Assembly: GCA_016929795.1 (NCBI GenBank)
Contig: JAFGIA010000224.1
Coordinates: 1-13,108, forward strand
Source of the DNA: Anaerolineae bacterium
Lineage (GTDB): Bacteria; Chloroflexota; Anaerolineae; JAAYZQ01
Length of the DNA stretch: 13,108 nt
Reading direction: 5' to 3'
Below the pieces are notes generated by a model. It saw only the letters and a list, made by a program, of their open reading frames with translations, did not search any database and was not told the origin of the DNA. The translations under genes were made by a program, and so were the position numbers. Shown here piece by piece: positions 2,662 to 12,947 of this stretch. The stretch's first letter is position 1; the number at the start of each line of letters is the position of its first letter.

Positions 2662-2690
2662 TTGCGTTGCTTTTCGTCTAGTGGTATAAT
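2662..2690 (+). promoter_or_regulatory. Extended -10 promoter of the six-gene operon
   Basis: A consensus TATAAT at 2685-2690 is preceded directly by TGG, giving the extended -10 form TGnTATAAT. A weak -35, TTGCGT, lies at 2662-2667 with a 17-base spacer. Transcription would start near 2697, leaving a leader of about 115 bases before the ATG at 2812. The position suits the lipoprotein gene and those after it. Confidence 0.5.
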
Positions 2691-2811: not shown

Positions 2812-5010
2812 ATGATGGCCAACAGACGCACGACAGCCTGGACAATTCTGTTGATGGCGACGCTGGCGGGGGCCATCGTTGGCTGCAACGGAATAGACGC
2901 TGCAGTTGCAGTCGACTTTTACCGCAACGAAGAATGGCGCGCTGTTCTTCACTTTTCGACCCCCGTGGATCCGTCTCAGCGGAGCGTAACAGAAGAAGAG
3001 ATCGAGTCGTACTTGAATGACCTGGTGGCTGGGGCTGTGGCACAGGGTGTCGATACGCACCTGACTGAGTACGTCGACGAAGGCTTTTTGATCTATAGCG
3101 TAGAGATGGAAGGAACAGGGCTGGACACGCTATCGCGTGCAGCCTTTCAGGGAGAGGCCGAAATTACCATCGACAACAACAACGGCGGGCGATCTCTGGT
3201 CCAGTTTCGTTACAACGCGAACGCAGGGCCGACCTTCGACTCGCTGGAACTGGTGCTGCGCGCAGGCGAGATCCTCGACGGGAATGGTACCCGGCTGGAC
3301 AATCGAACCATGCAATGGCGCAATCCGTACGGCGTGGTCGAAGCCACGCTGATGGAGCACTCCAGCCTCAGCCAGGCAGATGCGGACATTGCCGTGAGTT
3401 TTTACCGGGATGAGGATTGGCAGGCGGTCATGACCTTCTCGATCCCTGCAGACGTGATGAGCCAGCCTGGAACCGCGACGCAAGTTGCAGGCGAGCTGGA
3501 AGAGATGCGCGCGGCCGCCGAGGTGTACGGTGTATCGGCTGAATGGCACCAGGCGGCCAGTGCGGAGCACGAGGTGTATACCATCCAGATGCAAGGCAAC
3601 GGGCTGGATGTACTCTCCTGGCTCGTTTTCAGCGGGCAGGCTGCCATCTCGGTCGATCAATACGGCAGGCAGCAGTGGATCCACTTTCAAGACAAATCGG
3701 GCATTGGTTTGCAATACCGGTCATCACAGATTACGCTCCATGGTGGCACCGTGATGGACACCAACGGCGAGTGGATCGACAACCACACGGTGTCCTGGGA
3801 CAATGCCTACGGGCCGGTACAGGCCACGCTGCTCCCATCCTCGCTTCTATCCGACGCCGACGCGTATCTGACGCTCGACTTTTACCGCGGAGAACGCTGG
3901 CGAGCGATTTTGGAGCCAAGTCTGCCGGCAGAAAGCCTCTTCGCGGTCGATAACAAGGCCGAGATCGAACGTGAGCTGAACGAGCTGGTGGCACAAGCTG
4001 CCTTGGCCAACGTGACAGCTCAGTGGCGAGAGGCTCGAGGTCTTGACTCTGGGGCTTATGTGATCGAGATGGAGGGCACAGGGCTCGACCTCCTCTCCAC
4101 TGTCGTCTTGAACAATGTGGCGATGTTCGAAGTAGAGCAGACAGGCCGCGAGCCGCTGGTGCACTTTGCCCAGGAACGAAATGGGGGATGGGAATTTCAC
4201 TCGCTGGCGCTCGAGGTCAGAGGGCGCAAGATCGTCTCAGGGGACGGTGTGGGAGAGGGCACGCGGCGGATGACGTGGATGGATGCATCCGGCTGGACCA
4301 GTGCAACGATCATCGCCAGCCCTCGCTCGCTGGCCGATTTTGCGGCGGTGTACGGTCCAACGGTGGGCATTGGCGCCGCGGCCTTGATTGGAATGGGCCT
4401 GGTGGCAATAGGCGCGCGCAAGGCGTGGAAAAAGCATCAGGCGCGCCCCCCACGCTGCCCGCAGTGTGGTTTCAGATTCCCAGAAGATGCGCGCCACTGT
4501 CCCAGGTGCGGCCACGATCTGAGGTTCCGAGTTTGCCGCCGCTGTCGATTCCAGATGCCTGCCGATGCCGTCTTTTGCCCTCAATGCCGACTGGATCAGA
4601 GAGGGCTCGTCGAGAGGCTCGGCCACAGATGGGACCGGTGGCGAACCTCGATCCAGGCAGCCAGGCCTCGTAGCAAAGGAGATGCGGCACGTGAGCCCGG
4701 TCAAGACGAGCCCGAGCCTGCCGCGACATCTCTTTTCCCCATCCCCATTGGAAAAGAACTCCTCGTCGGCAGCGGTCCCGGCAGCGACCTGCAACTCGCC
4801 GCGCCCGGTGTCGCCACTGAACACGCTGTTATTCGTGCTGCACGCCGCTGCTATTTTGTCCAGGATCTGGGCAGTGAAGGGGGGACCTGGGTGAATGGGC
4901 AACGCATTCCCGGGGCAAGGAAACTCGAAAAAGAGGATGTGATCCAGATCGGCTCTGTGTCTCTTGTCTTTGACGGCGAGTCACTCGTTCAAAGCCACTG
5001 GGAGCTGTAG
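2812..5010 (+). CDS. Lipoprotein-like membrane protein: three tandem repeats, TM, double zinc ribbon, FHA-like domain
   Basis: The 732-residue protein opens with a signal peptide (NRR, then a hydrophobic run) ending in a lipobox-like AIVGC with Cys25. Three related ~160-residue units follow, with the D/S-FYR motif at residues 35, 196 and 356 and a matching [MV]xW about 132 residues later in each. A membrane segment lies at about 511-533 (GIGAAALIGMGLVAIGA), followed by basic residues, so the repeats should face outward and the rest the cytoplasm. Then come two zinc ribbons (CPQC, CPRC, CRRC, CPQC; about 549-600), a charged linker and an FHA-like domain (about 648-728). The FHA domain keeps the glycines, His671 and TWVNG, but the usual pThr contacts are replaced: Ser654 for the GR arginine, Ala668 for the SRxH serine, Gly690 for the NGT asparagine. 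It looks like a scaffold or sensor linking outside to inside. The repeat family is not recognised with certainty; an LppM/DUF3153-like relationship is only a guess. It is the first gene of the operon. Confidence 0.85.
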   Translation: MMANRRTTAWTILLMATLAGAIVGCNGIDAAVAVDFYRNEEWRAVLHFSTPVDPSQRSVTEEEIESYLNDLVAGAVAQGVDTHLTEYVDEGFLIYSVEMEGTGLDTLSRAAFQGEAEITIDNNNGGRSLVQFRYNANAGPTFDSLELVLRAGEILDGNGTRLDNRTMQWRNPYGVVEATLMEHSSLSQADADIAVSFYRDEDWQAVMTFSIPADVMSQPGTATQVAGELEEMRAAAEVYGVSAEWHQAASAEHEVYTIQMQGNGLDVLSWLVFSGQAAISVDQYGRQQWIHFQDKSGIGLQYRSSQITLHGGTVMDTNGEWIDNHTVSWDNAYGPVQATLLPSSLLSDADAYLTLDFYRGERWRAILEPSLPAESLFAVDNKAEIERELNELVAQAALANVTAQWREARGLDSGAYVIEMEGTGLDLLSTVVLNNVAMFEVEQTGREPLVHFAQERNGGWEFHSLALEVRGRKIVSGDGVGEGTRRMTWMDASGWTSATIIASPRSLADFAAVYGPTVGIGAAALIGMGLVAIGARKAWKKHQARPPRCPQCGFRFPEDARHCPRCGHDLRFRVCRRCRFQMPADAVFCPQCRLDQRGLVERLGHRWDRWRTSIQAARPRSKGDAAREPGQDEPEPAATSLFPIPIGKELLVGSGPGSDLQLAAPGVATEHAVIRAARRCYFVQDLGSEGGTWVNGQRIPGARKLEKEDVIQIGSVSLVFDGESLVQSHWEL
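2899..4320 (+). repeat. Three diverged tandem coding repeats, ~160 codons each
   Basis: Units begin at about 2899, 3382 and 3862, with periods of 161 and 160 codons. Shared landmarks are FYR-x-E/D-x-W-R/Q-A near the start, the segment E/Q-M-x-G-x-G-L-D in the middle and G-T-R-x-x-x-x-x-[MV]-x-W near the end. The units are diverged at the DNA level, so this is an old domain triplication rather than recent slippage. Confidence 0.85.
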
Positions 5011-5034
5011 CACAGTTTCACAAGGGGGCAGGAG

Positions 5035-5964
5035 ATGAACACGCACCAATGCAGCCAATGCGGTACGGAAAACGAAGCGGGCTTTCGTTTCTGTAAAAGC
5101 TGTGGCGCCCCACTCGCCACAGCAGAGATGGGGAATGGTACAGGCGCGGCGGATGAGGCTCGACCGTCATCCGGCACCAGGGTCACCCGGACAGTGGGTG
5201 CGGCTGCCCGGTCAATAGGGCAGTTGGGCTCGGGTGGTATGTCTGCCGTCAACATCTGGGGGCCCTTTGCAGGATTCGGGGAACGAGGACGGCACGTTTC
5301 CTGGTTGCTCAACAACCTGGGGGATCGTGCCGAGCGGTTACGCGACGCAGTCATGGAACGCTTCAACGAACGCCAGATCCCCGGAGCTCACATTCACCCA
5401 CGAACGCTCCTCGGTCAGGGCGTGGTGGTGGAGCGCAGGCCCTATTACTTTGCCCAGCGGGGCATCGCGACAGCGGCCCTGTATATTGCCCGGTTTGGCT
5501 ACGACCTGTACGTGTCACAGGTAACCTACGTCCGAGGCGCCATCAGCCCGCTGCGCGCCATCCTTCTGATCTCGAGCGTGCTCTTTCAACTCGGCTACAT
5601 CCCTGCGGTCATTGCTGCGATTGCACCCCTCAACGCCACAGGCGTTGACCTGGCGCGCCTGTACGGTTACGAAAGCTATGACTGGAGTGCATTCGGGTTT
5701 CTGAGCTGCTGTGTCGGGCCGTTATGGGCGCTGAACTCGCTGGGACTGCTCCTGGTTGCCCTGCACATGTTTTACAAGTTTCTGACAATCAAGGATCCGC
5801 TGGCGATGTTGCGCCTGCCCCCGAACGAGTTCCAACAGGATGACATTATCGCGCTTGAAAAAGCAGTGGAAGAAACGGTCCGTCTTTCTCTGGATGCCGT
5901 AGGCATCGACGCGGGGCTGATGCCCCCTGCACCCGAGTACGGGTTCAGGCGGCGACTGATATAG
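5035..5964 (+). CDS. Zinc-ribbon protein with two membrane segments
   Basis: This is a 309-residue protein of no recognised family. An N-terminal zinc ribbon (CSQC ... CKSC, residues 6-24) resembles those in the preceding gene product. A flexible Gly/Ala/Thr-rich linker (about 28-75) and a mixed region containing RPYYFAQRGIA follow. Two hydrophobic segments lie at about 173-196 and 220-246, with a short loop between them (LARLYGYESYDW). The C-terminal ~60 residues are soluble, with an acidic helix (DDIIALEKAVEETVRL). Both the zinc ribbon and the C-terminus should lie on the same side, probably the cytoplasm. AAGGGGG lies about seven bases before the ATG, and the gene starts 24 bases after the lipoprotein gene. 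Its place between a membrane scaffold and an ATPase suggests a membrane anchor or adaptor for the ATPase; this is inference. Confidence 0.8.
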   Translation: MNTHQCSQCGTENEAGFRFCKSCGAPLATAEMGNGTGAADEARPSSGTRVTRTVGAAARSIGQLGSGGMSAVNIWGPFAGFGERGRHVSWLLNNLGDRAERLRDAVMERFNERQIPGAHIHPRTLLGQGVVVERRPYYFAQRGIATAALYIARFGYDLYVSQVTYVRGAISPLRAILLISSVLFQLGYIPAVIAAIAPLNATGVDLARLYGYESYDWSAFGFLSCCVGPLWALNSLGLLLVALHMFYKFLTIKDPLAMLRLPPNEFQQDDIIALEKAVEETVRLSLDAVGIDAGLMPPAPEYGFRRRLI

Positions 5965-5979
5965 CACCGGGAGCATATC

Positions 5980-8724
5980 ATGTCCAAGTCGATTCAATCC
6001 TTCCCTGATGATGTGACCGCCGCGTCGGCCAGGCCATACGTCCAGGTCCTCTTGCACCGCGGCAGCGACACGTACCACACCCTCTTTGGGTATCGCATTC
6101 CCTACCTGCCTGACTTTCTCGCAGACCACACGCTGCTGGGCCTCACAGACAACGAGCGAATCGCCGAGGTGCTGAGCCGATGGACACAATTCGTCGTTGG
6201 ACTGCGCAAGTGGCGGGGCACTGCCTTTGCGCTACGCTTCCTGGCGTCGCCGGCGGACGGCACCATCGAGGTGGTCTTGCTTGGACGCTTGACGGCCAAA
6301 GGAGATCACACGCGCCGAGTCGCAGGAGACATGGCGGTGCATCTGGCAGGCCAGTTGACAGCGTTTGGCTTCCCATCTGAGCCCCTCGACCAGCCCGGCT
6401 TGCAGCATGCGCTCTCCCCGTTCGGCGAGCCGGCGACGATCGTCGAAGTGCGACAGCACGAGGAGCTCGTGCCGCTGTTCACCGTCAACCAGGATGCCTA
6501 CGTCGTGCACCCATTCTGGGCACCTGCCGGCTCCTGGCTGTTGCCTTTTGAGACGATGCTGCGCCAGGGCGGGCCAGTGGCGCTGAGCCTCTATCTTGAG
6601 CCAACAGAGCTCGATCCACACGAACGCGACCAGATCATGCACGCCGCACATATTGCCCAAACGCTTGCCAGCCGCAACATCCAGACCTTTTCTGGCGCTA
6701 CGCCCGGGCAGTGGCGCGACCCGCAAGCAGAGTTGATCGGTAGGGTGTACGCAGCACTCGCCCATCGACTGGCAGAGCCCTACCTGCTGGCCATACAGGT
6801 TGCAGCGCTCGATCCTTACGCGGCATGGGCGGTGGCGCGTTCTGTTGGCGGCGCGGTGACTGCGGGACGCGAGGCATTGGCCGTCGTGGCCGGAGAGCAG
6901 GAACTGCCCACAGGCTTTGACGTCCGTGCGCCCCGTGACGACGTCGAGAAGAAAGCGGCGAGAGAGTGTTTTGCGCGACTCATCCTTTCGCGCTGGGGAG
7001 AGCATCTGGCGACTCCTGGCAAGGAACGATTGGTGCGCCTGGTGGGCGCGAAAGGCGCTGCGGCTGCTTTTCGCTTTCCAATCAGCGTGCGCGGGGGTGT
7101 GCCCGGCATTGCGGTGCGACAGCCAGCGCCAGACTTTGAACCCGGCCCACGCCCCAAGGCGGCGGCAGCCGACGAATTGCACCTGGGCAGTTTTCGCCTG
7201 GGCGGCGCAGCCACCGTCAAGCTCGAAAGCCTGACCAGGCACACGTTGATCACCGGATTCACGGGCGCGGGCAAGACAAACACGGTGTTGTACCTTCTCA
7301 GCCAGTTATGGTGTGGGCGCAAGCTTCAAGGCGAGCCGCCGATTCCGTTCCTGGTGATCGAAGCCGCCAAAAAAGAGTACCGGGGTCTGCAATACCAACC
7401 CGGATTCGAAGAATTGCTGGTGTTCACCTTGGGTGACGAGACCACCTCACCCTTTCGACTGAACCCCTTCGAGCTGCTGTCCGGGGTCCGCGTGGAAGCA
7501 CACGTCGCCCGGCTGCAGACCTGCTTTGACGCGGCTTTGCCGCAGTTTGGGATCTTGCCCTCGATCATTGCCGAGGGCCTCGAGTCGATCTACAGAGACA
7601 AGGGGTGGAAGCTCGCCGACAAAGGTGAGGACGGACCGAACCGGATTCTGCCCACGATGCGCGACATGTATGTCAAGGTGATTCAGGTTGCAGAGCAGCG
7701 AGGCTATGCAGGAGAGACGCTACAGAACATCCGCGCGGCCGTGGGCGGGCGCATCGGCAGCCTGCTGCAGGGCAGCAGGGGCCAGATGTTTGCCTGCCAG
7801 CGCTCGATTCCGATCCACGTCCTGATGACCAGGCCGGTGGTGCTCGAACTGAACGACTTGAACGCGCAGGACAAGGCGCTGACGATGATGTTCTTGCTGA
7901 TGCTGCTTCGAGAATATCGTGAACTGAACAAAGGGCGCTCTCTGCAGCACGTAACAGTGGTTGAAGAAGCCCACAACGTCATGGAAAATGTCCGCTCGGT
8001 GGGGGCATCCGAGATTGCAGCCGACACGCGCGCAAAAGCAGTCGAAGCGTTCGCTGCGATGCTGGCAGAGGTGCGGGCCTATGGTGAAGGCATGATCATC
8101 TCGGATCAAAGCCCTGAGAAGCTTGCACCCGACGCCGTGCGCAATACAAACCTGCAAATCGCGCACCAACTGCGCCACCGAACCGACCGCGAGGCGATTG
8201 CTGCAGCGATGATTATGGACAAGGCGCAGGAAGAATATCTGGGCAAGCTCCAGGCCGGAGAGGCCGCCGTCTTTTTCAGTGGCTACGACAGGGCGACCTT
8301 TATCAGGGTCCCCAACTATAAGGACGAAGTCGATTTCCGGGAGCCAGGAGACGACCAGGTTGTGGAGCACATGGCAGCTTTCCGCCAGAAGCACTCGACC
8401 AGCTATTTGCCATTCGACGGTTGCCGCTACTGCGAGCGGGCGTGTGTGTACCGGGAAAAGATCGAGCCGCAGACGTTAAACAAGGAGCTGGTGCACGAGT
8501 TTCAAGCCGCTTTGAGGCAGTTCGACGAGCGACCGGAACGCACCCACTGGCCGGAGAATTGGCTCGGAGTCGCGGCGGTATGCGTGCGTGCTGCCCAGTT
8601 GGCCGGTCATCCCGCAGCGCTGGATGCGGCGTGGTGTTATCTCGCTCACGAGATCGATTTCCCATTTACAGCGCACATGCGCCGAGAGTTTAGCAGCGCG
8701 TTCGAACGCGTGACACAGCCGTAG
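5980..8724 (+). CDS. HerA/FtsK-superfamily ATPase (DUF87-like)
   Basis: The 914-residue protein has a ~400-residue N-terminal region of unknown fold and then a HerA-type P-loop ATPase. Walker A is GFTGAGKT (residues 426-433, Lys432). Walker B is HVTVVEEAH with Glu662-Glu663. Further family signatures are IEAAKKEYRGL, SPFRLNPFELL, GMIISDQSPEKLAP and HQLRHRTDRE, the last a likely arginine-finger segment. Near the C-terminus, Cys815, Cys818 and Cys822 (CRYCERAC) may hold metal. No membrane segment is visible. Relatives form hexameric rings that move DNA or protein: HerA-NurA, the VirB4/TraC ATPases of conjugation, and FtsK/EssC. GGGAG lies six bases before the ATG, 15 bases after the previous gene. 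The superfamily is confident; the substrate is unknown. With no nuclease next to it, the HerA-NurA type is unlikely, and a translocation or assembly motor fits the membrane-protein neighbours. Confidence 0.9.
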   Translation: MSKSIQSFPDDVTAASARPYVQVLLHRGSDTYHTLFGYRIPYLPDFLADHTLLGLTDNERIAEVLSRWTQFVVGLRKWRGTAFALRFLASPADGTIEVVLLGRLTAKGDHTRRVAGDMAVHLAGQLTAFGFPSEPLDQPGLQHALSPFGEPATIVEVRQHEELVPLFTVNQDAYVVHPFWAPAGSWLLPFETMLRQGGPVALSLYLEPTELDPHERDQIMHAAHIAQTLASRNIQTFSGATPGQWRDPQAELIGRVYAALAHRLAEPYLLAIQVAALDPYAAWAVARSVGGAVTAGREALAVVAGEQELPTGFDVRAPRDDVEKKAARECFARLILSRWGEHLATPGKERLVRLVGAKGAAAAFRFPISVRGGVPGIAVRQPAPDFEPGPRPKAAAADELHLGSFRLGGAATVKLESLTRHTLITGFTGAGKTNTVLYLLSQLWCGRKLQGEPPIPFLVIEAAKKEYRGLQYQPGFEELLVFTLGDETTSPFRLNPFELLSGVRVEAHVARLQTCFDAALPQFGILPSIIAEGLESIYRDKGWKLADKGEDGPNRILPTMRDMYVKVIQVAEQRGYAGETLQNIRAAVGGRIGSLLQGSRGQMFACQRSIPIHVLMTRPVVLELNDLNAQDKALTMMFLLMLLREYRELNKGRSLQHVTVVEEAHNVMENVRSVGASEIAADTRAKAVEAFAAMLAEVRAYGEGMIISDQSPEKLAPDAVRNTNLQIAHQLRHRTDREAIAAAMIMDKAQEEYLGKLQAGEAAVFFSGYDRATFIRVPNYKDEVDFREPGDDQVVEHMAAFRQKHSTSYLPFDGCRYCERACVYREKIEPQTLNKELVHEFQAALRQFDERPERTHWPENWLGVAAVCVRAAQLAGHPAALDAAWCYLAHEIDFPFTAHMRREFSSAFERVTQP

Positions 8725-8743
8725 CTACGCAGCCAAGCGGATT

Positions 8744-8751
8744 GGGGGGGG
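8744..8751 (+). promoter_or_regulatory. G-rich ribosome binding site for the 57-residue small protein
   Basis: A run of eight G ends six bases before the GTG at 8758. An ATG at 8756 overlaps it but is followed at once by TGA, so GTG is the only usable start. Confidence 0.45.
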
Positions 8752-8757
8752 AATCAT

Positions 8758-8931
8758 GTGAAAGACAAACCAGACAGGACCGAAATCACCAGGGATACCT
8801 TGACCGCCGGAAAGGGATTGGAGATCTTGATCAAGGAGTTTTGGTCGATCCTGGAGGCGGCATCGGAAAAAAAGACACCCTCTCAGTATCTCGGCGAGAG
8901 GGCGATTCGTGCTATCCAGGGCAAGGGGTAG
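8758..8931 (+). CDS. Small 57-residue protein of unknown function
   Basis: A short frame starts at GTG after a G-rich ribosome binding site and ends with TAG five bases before the ATG of the next gene. The predicted protein is hydrophilic and mostly helical, with an amphipathic stretch GLEILIKEFWSILEAASEKK (residues 20-39) and a basic end. No cysteines, signal peptide or membrane segment are seen. It fills the only sizeable gap in the operon, and its codon use resembles that of its neighbours. It might be a small adaptor or helical partner of the ATPase or peptidase. It is too short for a family assignment, and a non-coding leader is the alternative. Confidence 0.6.
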   Translation: MKDKPDRTEITRDTLTAGKGLEILIKEFWSILEAASEKKTPSQYLGERAIRAIQGKG

Positions 8932-8936
8932 AAGAG

Positions 8937-10283
8937 ATGTCATCAGACTATGGCGACACACAAGAACAGGCTGACACCAGTGAGCATGAATCGATACCAG
9001 AGACGAGCTACTCTCTCAGCCCAACCGGTATCGAGTCGATGCAAGGCCCTCCCGACGTCGTGGAAAATGAGCCACCGGACAGAGGGGAAGAGGCAGAGGC
9101 GCACAAGGCAAGGGAGACAGAAAAGCCCGAGCCCATCGAAGAAACGGACGAGAGGGTGCCAGATCGGCCCACACCGGCTGAAGAAGAACCTGCGGAGAGG
9201 ATCAAAGAACCCACTGCCCGCGCCGAGGCTGAGCCGCCGGAGGAGCCTGAACCTGCCCCAGAGCGGCCAGAAGCAGCGATCGAGACCGCCGAGCCGATCG
9301 AGAGCGACGTAGCACAAGAGGCCGTGGCGCCTGAGGAGCAACAGGCTGAGGGGCAGGAGGCAGAGGAACCCACCCAGGCTGAGGGGCAGGAGGCAGAGGA
9401 ACCCACCCAGGCTGAGGGGCAGGAGGCAGAGGAACCCACCCAGGCCGCGCCGGAAACGACTGCGGAAGGGGAACAATCCCCTGGCGAGCCCGGCGAGGCC
9501 AGCCCAGAAGGCGCTCCACCGGTCGAGGAACCGCAGGATGAGCCGTGGAGGGAGCATGAGCACGCCGAGGCGCCGGCGGAGGCGGCACCGGAAGGAATCA
9601 GGTTCCAGGACGGGACCTCGGAAGTGCCTGGGCCAGCCGACTCTTCCGCCGAATCCCCCCCACTCGATGAAGAGCTTTCCGAGTCGAGCCTCGAGCCAGA
9701 GCCGCCCTCGGACGCGAGCGAGTACCGGATCGTGGGGGACCCGGAAGGGGACGCCCAATATTACTACTGGCAAGGGCCAGAGCCACATTGCGCGATCGTC
9801 GCGCAGGATGGCATTCTTCAGAAGATGACAGGAGAATCACCGGGCCAAGACGCCCTTCTCGCAGAAGCACGCGAGAAGGGATGGTACGACAACGGCACAC
9901 ATCAGGCAGACGTCGGCAAGCACCTCGACACGCGCGGCATCCCCACCAGGGAGTGGCCCAACAGCGACATGAACGCACTGCTGGCAGAAATAGAGCAAGG
10001 CCATCCCGTGATTGCCTGTGTGGATGCGGGTTGCCTCTGGGAGGACGGGGCGCACCTGGACGAAGGGCACGCCGTGTGGGTGACAGGTTTACAGGTCGAC
10101 CACGCGGGCAAGGTGGTCGGCGTATTTCTCAACGATAGTGGCAGGCCGGATGACGGCGGCGACCGCGTCGACGCCGCCGTGTTCGAGTCCGCCTGGTCGA
10201 AGCTAGATCATTCTTTGATCACGATCGAAGGAGCTGCACCGGCGCGCGCAGCGGCAGGAGGGTACCATGTCAACCCGAATTGA
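8937..10283 (+). CDS. Acidic disordered protein with C-terminal C39/papain-like cysteine peptidase domain
   Basis: The 448-residue protein has two parts. Residues ~1-265 are rich in Glu, Pro, Ala and Gln and almost surely disordered; they include three exact copies of QAEGQEAEEPT. Residues ~268-440 look like a papain-fold peptidase of the C39-like type: Gln279 six residues before Cys285 (QGPEPHC), then GHPVIACVDAG, His378 in EGHAVWVTG and Asn399-Asp400 in FLNDSG. Gln, Cys, His and Asx therefore sit in canonical order, so the domain is probably active. No signal peptide or membrane segment is present. C39 domains remove Gly-Gly leader peptides in ABC exporters, but here the domain is free-standing with no ABC transporter nearby. 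The ATG at 8937 was chosen because AAGGGG lies eight bases upstream; a longer in-frame reading back to 8742 would overlap the small protein. It may be an effector or processing enzyme of the operon. Confidence 0.8.
   Translation: MSSDYGDTQEQADTSEHESIPETSYSLSPTGIESMQGPPDVVENEPPDRGEEAEAHKARETEKPEPIEETDERVPDRPTPAEEEPAERIKEPTARAEAEPPEEPEPAPERPEAAIETAEPIESDVAQEAVAPEEQQAEGQEAEEPTQAEGQEAEEPTQAEGQEAEEPTQAAPETTAEGEQSPGEPGEASPEGAPPVEEPQDEPWREHEHAEAPAEAAPEGIRFQDGTSEVPGPADSSAESPPLDEELSESSLEPEPPSDASEYRIVGDPEGDAQYYYWQGPEPHCAIVAQDGILQKMTGESPGQDALLAEAREKGWYDNGTHQADVGKHLDTRGIPTREWPNSDMNALLAEIEQGHPVIACVDAGCLWEDGAHLDEGHAVWVTGLQVDHAGKVVGVFLNDSGRPDDGGDRVDAAVFESAWSKLDHSLITIEGAAPARAAAGGYHVNPN
9342..9440 (+). repeat. 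Three exact 33-bp tandem repeats in the acidic region
   Basis: A 33-base unit beginning CAGGCTGAGGGGCAGG occurs three times head to tail without a single mismatch, at 9342, 9375 and 9408, followed by a partial CAGGCC. Each unit adds 11 residues in frame. Exact identity points to recent slippage or unequal recombination, so the copy number probably varies between strains. Confidence 0.95.
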
Positions 10284-10803
10284 GGAGCTATACACACAGA
10301 CGCGCAACCATCCCGTTTGCCACCACCTGATCCCGTTGGAGGCCGTGCTCTCTTATCCGGTACCCTCGCGCAGGGGTGATCTCACCTACCTGAAGTTTCT
10401 CGTGTACCGGCGGGGCATCGCGCCACGCGGCGCCATGCGGCCGGTGTATCGCCCGCACGCCCGCTTGAGTGTCGAGTACCCAACCGGGCAACTGGTCGAG
10501 TATGTCGATTTGCGCTTCGCCGACGGCGCACCGGTCAGCCCACTTGCGGAACAGGTCGGCGAGTTCCCCCACCTACAGATCGCCAACCTGAGCTTTCAAG
10601 AAATGATCGCGGAGCGTTCTGCTTTCTTTGACGCCATCGAGGGAATCATCCCACTCGTCGGAAGGCGTGATCTGACCGAGGACGATCGACAAATCGTCGC
10701 CAGGTACCGGGCCTTGTTCGACATGCTGGTCGAGCCAGGACTGAAGCCTTTTTATCGAGCGCTCGACACCGAGTTCTTTGAATGGCTGGAGATGATGGCC
10801 TAG
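10267..10803 (+). CDS. Unrecognised 178-residue protein coupled to the peptidase gene
   Basis: The ATG lies inside the last codons of the peptidase gene (17-base overlap), with AGGAGG five bases upstream; translation is probably coupled. The protein looks cytoplasmic and globular. An N-terminal half with beta-strand character (LTYLKFLVYRRG, LSVEYPTGQLVEYVDLRF) is followed by a helical C-terminal half (about 105-178) ending in an acidic, aromatic FFEWLEMMA. No signal peptide, membrane segment or known catalytic motif was found. The tight coupling to a predicted cysteine peptidase suggests an inhibitor, immunity protein, chaperone or substrate adaptor. This is inferred from arrangement only. 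Confidence 0.8.
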   Translation: MSTRIEELYTQTRNHPVCHHLIPLEAVLSYPVPSRRGDLTYLKFLVYRRGIAPRGAMRPVYRPHARLSVEYPTGQLVEYVDLRFADGAPVSPLAEQVGEFPHLQIANLSFQEMIAERSAFFDAIEGIIPLVGRRDLTEDDRQIVARYRALFDMLVEPGLKPFYRALDTEFFEWLEMMA

Positions 10804-12145: not shown

Positions 12146-12652
12146 TTAGTGACTGAGATCTCTCAAGTCGGTGATCGGCGATTGATAGCGACCGATAATC
12201 ATCTCCTGCAAAATGGCATTGCCCTGCTCAAGCGTGATCAGCGACTTGTCAATGGCCTGCATGAGTACCGCGAGGGTGCCTGCTTTCGAGACGCCAAGCT
12301 CGTCAGCCTTGCCGCGAGCAGCGCGGTCATCAGTGAGGAAACGCCAGCCGCGGCACTTGGCAATCGCAAGAGACATCGCCTCACCACGGTGCAGCTTTTG
12401 CGGCAGACTCTGGAACAACTCGAGTTCCTGTTCCCCCTCTATTGTGGTGAGGTGCAACCAACCATCTTTACGAAAAGGCTGGATCTCTTTCTCAAGCCCG
12501 GCATAAAAGGCATAGCCTTCGTCGAGGCCAGCCTGGACCTCTTCAAACACCGCCTGGGCCATGTACAAGGCTCCAAACAAAGAGCGAAGCAGATCAAGCC
12601 GACCAACTGCCGCAAAGTTGGACAGAACTGTGGTATTAACGAGGACGTTCAT
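12146..12652 (-). CDS. DUF3368 PIN-like toxin of a toxin-antitoxin pair
   Basis: This is a 168-residue protein of the DUF3368 group of PIN-domain nucleases (VapC-related). The start MNVLVNTTVLSNF has Asn6 where most PIN domains have Asp; asparagine at this place (SNTSPL-type) is usual in DUF3368 and is not evidence of decay. Other acidic positions are present: HRGEAMSLAIA (Glu91) and FLTDDRAAR (Asp108/109). PIN toxins cut RNA, often tRNA or rRNA, using Mg2+ held by these residues. The ATG overlaps the end of the antitoxin gene by 17 bases and has no good ribosome binding site of its own, so it is probably translated by coupling. This keeps toxin below antitoxin. Confidence 0.85.
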   Translation of the reverse strand: MNVLVNTTVLSNFAAVGRLDLLRSLFGALYMAQAVFEEVQAGLDEGYAFYAGLEKEIQPFRKDGWLHLTTIEGEQELELFQSLPQKLHRGEAMSLAIAKCRGWRFLTDDRAARGKADELGVSKAGTLAVLMQAIDKSLITLEQGNAILQEMIIGRYQSPITDLRDLSH

Positions 12653-12947
12653 CGAACCAGGACTTGATTTCGGCGATATCCGCTTGGGCTTCTTCGACGC
12701 TGCCAGGCCCGAGACGAAGAGGAATGCCTCGCTCTACGAGTATCTCTTTCATCTGATCAAAGCTCACGCCGGCAATACTGGCTGCCTTGGCCAGCGACAG
12801 ATCCTCTTCTGCTTCATAGCGGCGCACGGCCAGCTCCAGGCGCATTTCAGGCCGAGTGCGCAGCAGCGAACGCAGAGCGTCTCGAACAACACTCTCCTCA
12901 TCCGGATACAGATCCACGTCCACAAAGTCTCGAATGCTCACCAACAT
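12636..12947 (-). CDS. UPF0175-type antitoxin
   Basis: This 103-residue protein lies upstream of and overlaps the DUF3368 toxin. The central part, LAVRRYEAEEDLSLAKAASIAGVSFDQM and on to LVERGIPLRL, fits the UPF0175 pattern, in which a helix-turn-helix-like segment follows a conserved YEAEE-type helix. The N-terminal ~35 residues (ESVVRDALRSLLRTRPEM) resemble a ribbon-helix-helix DNA-binding element. It is expected to bind the toxin and repress the shared promoter. AAGGTGG lies six bases before the ATG. Confidence 0.85.
   Translation of the reverse strand: MLVSIRDFVDVDLYPDEESVVRDALRSLLRTRPEMRLELAVRRYEAEEDLSLAKAASIAGVSFDQMKEILVERGIPLRLGPGSVEEAQADIAEIKSWFDERPR

Follow-up and report, generated by a model that had tools for sequence, protein, structure and literature searches.

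What could six closely spaced genes in the genome of an Anaerolineae bacterium be making together? The genes, here P1 to P6, lie between positions 2812 and 10803 of a 13,108-nucleotide stretch of contig JAFGIA010000224.1 (assembly GCA_016929795.1), which is called the window below. They encode two membrane-associated proteins (P1 and P2), an ATPase (P3), a 57-residue protein (P4), a peptidase-like protein (P5) and its neighbour (P6). An original prediction took them for a six-gene system, perhaps an export or translocation apparatus with an effector or a processing enzyme. The locus is probably a polymorphic effector-immunity system with an export machine of its own.

A VirB4-like motor and its recurrent partners

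P3 (914 aa; 5980..8724, plus strand) is a VirB4/HerA-type ATPase by its sequence and its structure model. It has an N-domain (6037-7137, plus strand), a single motor domain (about 7138-8337, plus strand) and conserved cysteines C815, C818 and C822 in the C-terminal part, and it lacks a transmembrane (TM) segment. Family models point in several directions. Pfam reports DUF87/HerA (2.8e-5), the best NCBIfam match is CedD (5.9e-18, far below that model's cut-off) and PADLOC reports mad8 (9e-14, cut-offs not supplied), with HerA models matching too. Against the sequences of solved structures, a profile of the whole ATPase finds one DUF87 protein (1.6e-5) and a profile of the N-domain reaches an E-value of about 0.2 at best. 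In the structure model, each of the two large domains matches VirB4 (TrwK) secretion ATPase structures, and the best fold match of the N-domain is VirB4, with an ESX core subunit matching more weakly. HerA alignments with the whole model begin near residue 382, and the 50 matches listed in each N-domain fold search include none to HerA, an absence that is no proof of difference. Because the modelled N-domain matches VirB4 and, less well, an ESX core subunit, the motor may have structural ties to type IV as well as type VII machines.

How widespread is this ATPase? Of 7,993 candidates scored, 901 are homologous at an E-value of 1e-10 or lower, and in the 120 listed the few with a name come from Chloroflexota. 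Scanning genomes turned up 42 loci, 14 of them close (Chloroflexota), one in the cyanobacterium Symploca and 27 distant; the related ATPase loci are referred to as L001, L002 and so on, and genomes by G numbers. The ATPase is patchily distributed. At a threshold E-value of 1e-120 it is found in 14/396 genomes of a class draw, in 3/56 genomes of one order, in 3/20 of one family, and in 6/400 and 5/301 in two draws of another order. A phylum draw had 21/400 matches at 1e-30, two of those below 1e-120. The order-level draws yielded no loci beyond the known ones.

One partner of the ATPase is P2 (309 aa; 5035..5964, plus strand), which has two hydrophobic regions and a zinc ribbon (matching DUF7577 at 1.5e-9 and Zn_Ribbon_1 at 3.9e-7). 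P2 lies directly upstream of P3 in 15 of the 19 loci that could be assessed (the window, L002, L003, L004, L005, L006, L008, L010, L011, L013, L015, L082, L084, L085 and L089). It is more distant in L007 and L081, and was not seen in L001, where 3 kb upstream were available, or in L014. L009, L012 and L090 were left out of this count because their upstream sequence is missing.

Another partner is P4 (57 aa, GTG start; 8758..8931, plus strand); 420 of 5,173 candidates are homologous to it at an E-value of 0.001 or lower. The core-locus searches covered 25 sequences, representing 22 distinct loci, and P4 is present in 14 of the 25, each time at E <1e-15 (seven of these 14 had built the profile). 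It always lies downstream of the ATPase on these contigs (14/14), at a distance of up to ~12 kb. In 8/14 the next tagged or cargo-position gene overlaps P4 or follows within 12 bp (the window, L001, L005, L009, L010, L012, L013 and L115). P4 is present in 15/23 genomes picked for the ATPase, and in four of the eight that lack it (G430, G389, G462 and G686) the ATPase is on short or edge contigs. Co-occurrence can also be read the other way. P4 is found in 9/366 genomes of the class draw, and seven of these nine have an ATPase match below 1e-120 (P 2e-9, binomial with 14/396). In G402 none of the ATPase matches reached the threshold, and P4 lies within 530 bases of the end of its contig; in G494, frameshifted ATPase pieces are next to a P4 fused to a zinc-ribbon protein. 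P4 is proposed to be a conserved small helper or co-substrate. In L140 (9470-10096) a zinc-ribbon membrane protein has P4 fused to its end, with a frameshifted ATPase alongside.

A short tag common to P4 and many cargos

What might connect a small helper with the genes behind it? P4 ends with a tag, PSQYLGERAIRAIQG (8878..8922, plus strand, residues 41-55), which in the window closes with the stretch LGERAIRAIQG and in which Q54 and G55 are invariant across 13 rows. A version of it, LSPTGIESMQG, stands near the N-terminus of P5 (9015..9047, plus strand, residues 27-37), and others occur in downstream genes of related loci: LTPTGIRAIQG (L009), LSPSGVAAIQG (L007), LSPAGQHAMQG (L010) and LSDKGRRAMQG (L082). 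The consensus is about LSxxGxxA[IM]QG, and the tag is probably helical.

With a matrix built from 12 P4 tails alone, 678 other proteins were scanned over their 70 N-terminal residues. A score of at least 6 was reached by 10/371 core-locus proteins versus 0/307 others, and by 8/6,780 shuffled N-termini. All ten scoring proteins lie behind the ATPase in the cargo position, P5 ranking third (14.7). The C39 protein of L001 has its tag behind a GNAT domain, at residue 184 (score 13.4).

The gene at L001 5960-7375 encodes a GNAT acetyltransferase domain, then the tag, then C39_2, and the cargo at L008 3974-4699 has two tag copies in its first 65 residues. At L117 10141-14516, three tandem acidic proteins by a sister ATPase have N-termini that look alike by eye and differ in the rest; these N-termini are perhaps a second tag type.

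A putative cargo and its exchange

The window's cargo is P5 (448 aa; 8937..10283, plus strand). After the tag it has an acidic, Pro-rich linker (9048..9722, plus strand; 32% Asp+Glu, 17% Pro) and a C39-like cysteine peptidase domain (9723..10280, plus strand). Residues Cys285, His378 and Asn399-Asp400 of this domain follow a papain-like order and align with homologues in three further database proteins, all from Streptomyces and annotated PF13529, among the candidates scored. Gln279 is a candidate oxyanion residue; it aligns with a Gln in L010 and not in the Streptomyces homologues. With it, P5 would have the Gln, Cys, His and Asp/Asn of a C39 peptidase. Within the linker, at about 9357-9455 (residues about 141-173), there is a period-11 repeat, EAEEPTQAEGQ, in two exact copies and a partial third.

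P6 (178 aa; 10267..10803, plus strand) overlaps the 3' end of P5 by 17 bp. The C39-like domain (42%) and P6 (35-36% identity) occur together in L010 and L013, and a search of the 25 core-locus sequences, restricted to the contigs that hold these loci, found P5-domain homologues in the window and these two loci only. On these grounds P6 probably serves P5 as its cognate immunity protein or as a partner. Neither P4 nor P6 matches a Pfam family at E up to 1.

Other loci have other cargos. C39_2 domains are found in L001 (1.6e-13) and L007 (2.8e-13); both proteins have, by eye, a hydrophobic stretch between tag and protease and may therefore have another role. A DUF6782 metallopeptidase occurs in L005 (5.4e-8) and L089 (7.9e-6, below cut-off), in the latter with a PsbP-like partner (5.9e-4, below cut-off), and a SprT-like protein in L008 (1.9e-4, below cut-off). 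Cargos of L082, L115 and L140, a 151-aa protein of L001 and the second cargo of L009 have no domain assignment, and ten cargo or partner proteins compared with NCBIfam gave nothing convincing. The window, L007, L008, L009, L010, L012 and L013 have the tag in common and differ in their enzyme domains.

Do the cargos follow the machine in descent? In the ATPase tree the window belongs to a 12-row clade (100/99) that includes L001, L003, L005, L007, L008, L009 and L012, and these seven carry cargos other than the window's. L010 and L013, with the window-type C39-like domain and P6, fall in a separate clade. The metallopeptidase pair common to L005 and L089 (34%, 23%) is likewise found in different ATPase clades. 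The metallopeptidase of L008 and the gene after it recur by the sister ATPase of L113 (45%, 31%), where a long acidic N-terminus replaces the tag. To judge by sequence, the effector cassette appears to have been exchanged between relatives, the P5/P6 type crossing ATPase clades. Neighbours of sister ATPases include a CDI-toxin domain (L114, 5e-15), Imm49 (L119, 1.4e-47) and a WXG100 protein (L118, 7.3e-11). In one scan of ten sister-locus proteins the CDI-toxin and Imm49 were the sole toxin or immunity domains; six proteins had no match and two belonged to other families. At L112 5769-7895, adjoining a divergent ATPase, a very long EPVVDEA heptad repeat precedes what by eye is a putative nuclease-like region.

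What does this leave of the original prediction? Its idea of an apparatus that exports or translocates, together with an effector, gains support from the VirB4-like ATPase domains, the diverse toxin-like downstream slot, two immunity-like neighbours and the tag common to the helper and many cargos. A fixed set of six genes had to be given up. P2, P3 and P4 recur, and nine loci have the P1 repeat, whereas homologues of the P5 domain and P6 occur in just two related loci, L010 and L013, among the sequences searched and are otherwise replaced. A tabulation of the ATPase's neighbours had been proposed as the check, and in it the linkage to P2 and P4 recurs and P5/P6 are not kept. Differing neighbours in close relatives had been named as grounds for refutation; part of the neighbourhood does differ, yet in the pattern expected of polymorphic effectors.

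A proposed mechanism

How might such a system work? P3 would act at the membrane together with P2 and, in loci that have it, with P1, whose FHA domain and zinc ribbons might serve in the cytoplasm as a platform for assembly or control. The tag would be an export signal that either P3 or P2 recognises, and P3 would pump proteins out of the cell. P4, with the tag at its C-terminus, could be a co-substrate or targeting partner, comparable to the WXG100/Lap proteins of type VII secretion. An effector would carry the tag near its N-terminus and a toxic enzyme domain at its C-terminus, with a flexible linker (acidic in the window) between them. The window's effector would be P5, with its putative C39-like cysteine peptidase as the toxic part, neutralised by P6 as the immunity protein. 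Related bacteria would keep the machine and swap the effector cassette. Cargos that have no recognisable tag may ride with P4 or use another signal.

A more specific proposal, put forward tentatively, is that this is a new class of secretion in Chloroflexota, in which polymorphic toxins, along with a 57-residue co-substrate, leave the cell through a VirB4-type motor and a zinc-ribbon membrane partner, guided by one shared 11-residue sorting helix. If true, this would add a trafficking route for bacterial toxin delivery, in a phylum with little-known competition biology. A short, searchable tag could reveal unknown effectors by sequence, and it would become directly testable whether VirB4 motors, conjugation and type VII secretion are linked in evolution. 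No description of the system or the tag was found among the papers that the literature searches listed or in parts of PMC3482391, PMC7159879, PMC8195603, PMC12136450, PMC11217815 and PMC10765036 (bioRxiv and most subscription papers lie outside their coverage).

However, a number of observations weigh against an effector-immunity system with its own export machine. One group concerns the machine. Superposition of the whole P3 model on VirB4 is poor (root-mean-square deviation 15-19), and single domains alone fit. No outer pore, VirB6/8/10 or type VII membrane genes were recognised; Pfam and NCBIfam pick up no VirB3, VirB6, VirB8, VirB10 or VirD4 in the six proteins, where distant forms could escape them. 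Distant P3 relatives lie on plasmids near relaxase-type or replication-relaxation genes, and DNA transport is therefore a possible role in their ancestry. P4 is absent genome-wide from G578, G499, G764 and G768 (L089, L090, L008 and L014, respectively) despite sequence downstream of the ATPase.

Another group concerns the tag. The matrix test was not blind, the motif having been first spotted by eye in the same loci, and in full-length scans three control proteins reach 11.6-11.7 at interior positions. The cargos of L003, L005, L085/L116 and L089 have no scoring tag. Nor has the closest P5 homologue, the C39-like protein in L010, and this absence slightly lowers our confidence. (SMQG in L005, RMQG in L010 and SIQG in L085 are visible by eye.) Scores are low for the second L009 cargo (4.1) and a 108-aa L008 protein (3.8), and the tags of L115 (3.3) and L142 (-0.5) are weak.

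The last group concerns the cargos. Genes of the related loci are greedy open reading frames (ORFs), not curated genes. P5 itself matches Peptidase_C39_2 below cut-off (E 0.059), and P6 and several cargo partners match no immunity family. Also below cut-off are ParB_N in L003 (0.002) and L009 (2.3e-4), PD-(D/E)XK in L010 (0.012) and GmrSD_C in L142 (0.0014). The two immunity-like neighbours are an Imm33-like protein after an HNH domain in L116 (HNH 5.8e-5; Imm33 3e-4, below cut-off) and a SUKH-1-like protein after an HNH-like domain in L012 (HNH 0.17; SUKH-1 1.4e-4, below cut-off).

Known systems and other explanations

Is the locus a variant of something already described? The type VIIb secretion system, with its LXG toxins and WXG100/Lap proteins, differs in several respects. 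P4 has 57 residues and no Pfam match, the cargo has a short tag in place of an LXG helical domain, and one VirB4-like motor that is devoid of TM segments stands where EssC/EccC has several FtsK domains and TM helices. EssA-, EssB- and EsaA-like genes were not recognised at the locus, and by sequence neither P4 nor P5 matches WXG100 at E up to 1. With type IV secretion systems (T4SSs) there is a feature in common: P3, as modelled, combines a VirB4-type N-domain with a motor. However, Xanthomonas T4SS effectors carry a C-terminal XVIPCD domain, and the scoring cargos here carry a near-N-terminal tag. One T4SS protein is reportedly a structural homologue of type VII EssB, according to the title of PMC13037476.

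Polymorphic toxin systems offer another comparison. Here, too, a constant N-terminal region, putatively for trafficking, precedes variable C-terminal domains, an arrangement of constant trafficking region and variable C-terminal enzyme that parts of Zhang et al. (2012; PMC3482391) describe, along with the immunity families SUKH, Imm33 and Imm49. The trafficking modes in Table 1 and the Background of that paper are Sec, T1, T3, T4, T5, T6, PVC, T7, TcdB/TcaC, PrsW and MuF (T, type), and a stand-alone VirB4/HerA motor with a tag is not among them.

What if nothing is exported at all? The ATPase could be part of an intracellular conflict or anti-phage system, in which a HerA-type motor with a tag-docked nuclease or peptidase senses invasion and kills its own cell. 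The mad8 and HerA matches of P3 and its patchy distribution would agree with this, and HerA-effector complexes are known in defence, going by the titles of structure entries. However, VirB4 is the best match of the N-domain, two cargos adjoin immunity-like genes, P1 and P2 are membrane proteins, sister loci have a CDI-toxin domain, Imm49 and WXG100, and none of the other five proteins has a PADLOC match at E up to 1. This explanation is unlikely.

Slightly less likely still is a maturation pathway, in which P5 cuts the tag as a double-glycine-like leader and the proteins so matured are exported by the ATPase. The double-glycine leader consensus is LSxxELxxIxGG, which the tag resembles in spacing and hydrophobic positions. 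C39-like proteins occur in the window (P5), L001, L007, L010 and L013, and the hydrophobic stretch of the L001 and L007 proteins suggests, by eye, membrane anchoring. Several features do not fit. P5 bears the tag itself, the residue after QG varies, and P4 has just 1-10 residues left beyond its tag in 12/13 rows (16 in the other). C39 homologues are missing from most loci searched, the P5 type being limited as described above and the L007 type to L007 and L001 among the same 25 sequences. Finally, the C39 peptidases of bacteriocin export are fused to or neighboured by an ABC transporter, and none was found in the six proteins or five flanking ORFs covered by the Pfam scans. The processing enzyme of the original prediction is disfavoured for the same reasons, the C39-like protein being tagged and most loci searched showing no homologue of it.

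A DNA-transfer apparatus (conjugation or Ced-like uptake, with cargos as entry or anti-defence factors travelling with the DNA) is improbable, for although CedD is the top NCBIfam match, VirB4 is a conjugation ATPase and distant homologues have the plasmid surroundings mentioned, the Pfam scans recognised no relaxase, coupling protein or mobile-element gene in the window, toxin-like cargos with immunity-like neighbours would be untypical, and a scan of viral_contigs gave no close relatives, plasmids and phages yielding partial matches of <60% identity only. A virus or plasmid origin was rejected on the same searches.

P1, operon layout and surroundings

P1 spans 732 aa (2812..5010, plus strand), and all its features are on the plus strand. 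A hydrophobic N-terminal signal (near residues 7-30) with a lipobox-like AIVGC, noted by eye, precedes three repeats of ~155 residues each (2896-3366, 3376-3846 and 3859-4326, by self-profile), a TM segment by hydrophobicity (about 4360-4416, hydrophobic near residues 513-535), a double zinc ribbon (4456-4587, Pfam 3.1e-9) and an FHA domain (4762-4953, Pfam 1.1e-13). The nine loci with the repeat, found with a profile from the window's own repeats, include the window, the only one with three repeats in one protein; in L005 the repeat gene is on the opposite strand. Comparison with LppM gave weak matches (4/11 rows, best E 0.008), a likeness that is suggestive only and on which nothing was found in the literature searched. 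Against the sequences of solved structures the repeat profile matched designed Pizza proteins only, over 32-36 positions, which was taken as chance. The usual FHA signature is GR, SxxH and NG; the window's P1 has VGSG, VATEH and SEGGT at these positions, and the FHA protein of L013 looks canonical. The FHA domains of EssC are likewise described without phosphate-binding residues in parts of PMC10765036.

The six ORFs, all on the plus strand, are separated by 24, 15, 33, 5 and -17 bases, exactly as predicted, and it is plausible that they share a single transcript. A GGAGG stands ahead of P1 (2801-2805). The one good promoter of the prediction can be seen by eye (2662..2690, plus strand) as a sigma-70-like TTGCGT, 17 bp and TATAAT with a TGn extension, but the promoter scan does not list it, the -35 box having 3/6 matches where the scan's rule asks for 4 of 6. 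The predicted domains were all found (FHA and zinc ribbons, a zinc-ribbon protein with two hydrophobic regions, a HerA/DUF87 ATPase and a 57-aa protein). For the acidic C39-like peptidase, the linker and the Cys/His/Asn-Asp alignment with PF13529 homologues bear out the prediction, and the Pfam match is the weak part.

Some minor observations remain. Sister ATPases of ~1,080-1,150 aa are found in large genomes of the phylum (L104, L105, L107-L110 and L120), beside recurring gene sets that may be T4SS-like. The window contains no Rfam families or tRNAs. Its positions 1-1674 encode the C-terminal part of an MrfA/HRQ1-like helicase with an MZB domain (3e-21), and an HNH endonuclease motif (5e-7) sits between the helicase and MZB parts. 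On the minus strand, at 12146-12947, a UPF0175 protein (4e-9) is overlapped by a 168-aa ORF, which has no Pfam match and presumably resembles a PIN-type toxin; the two are a possible toxin-antitoxin pair.

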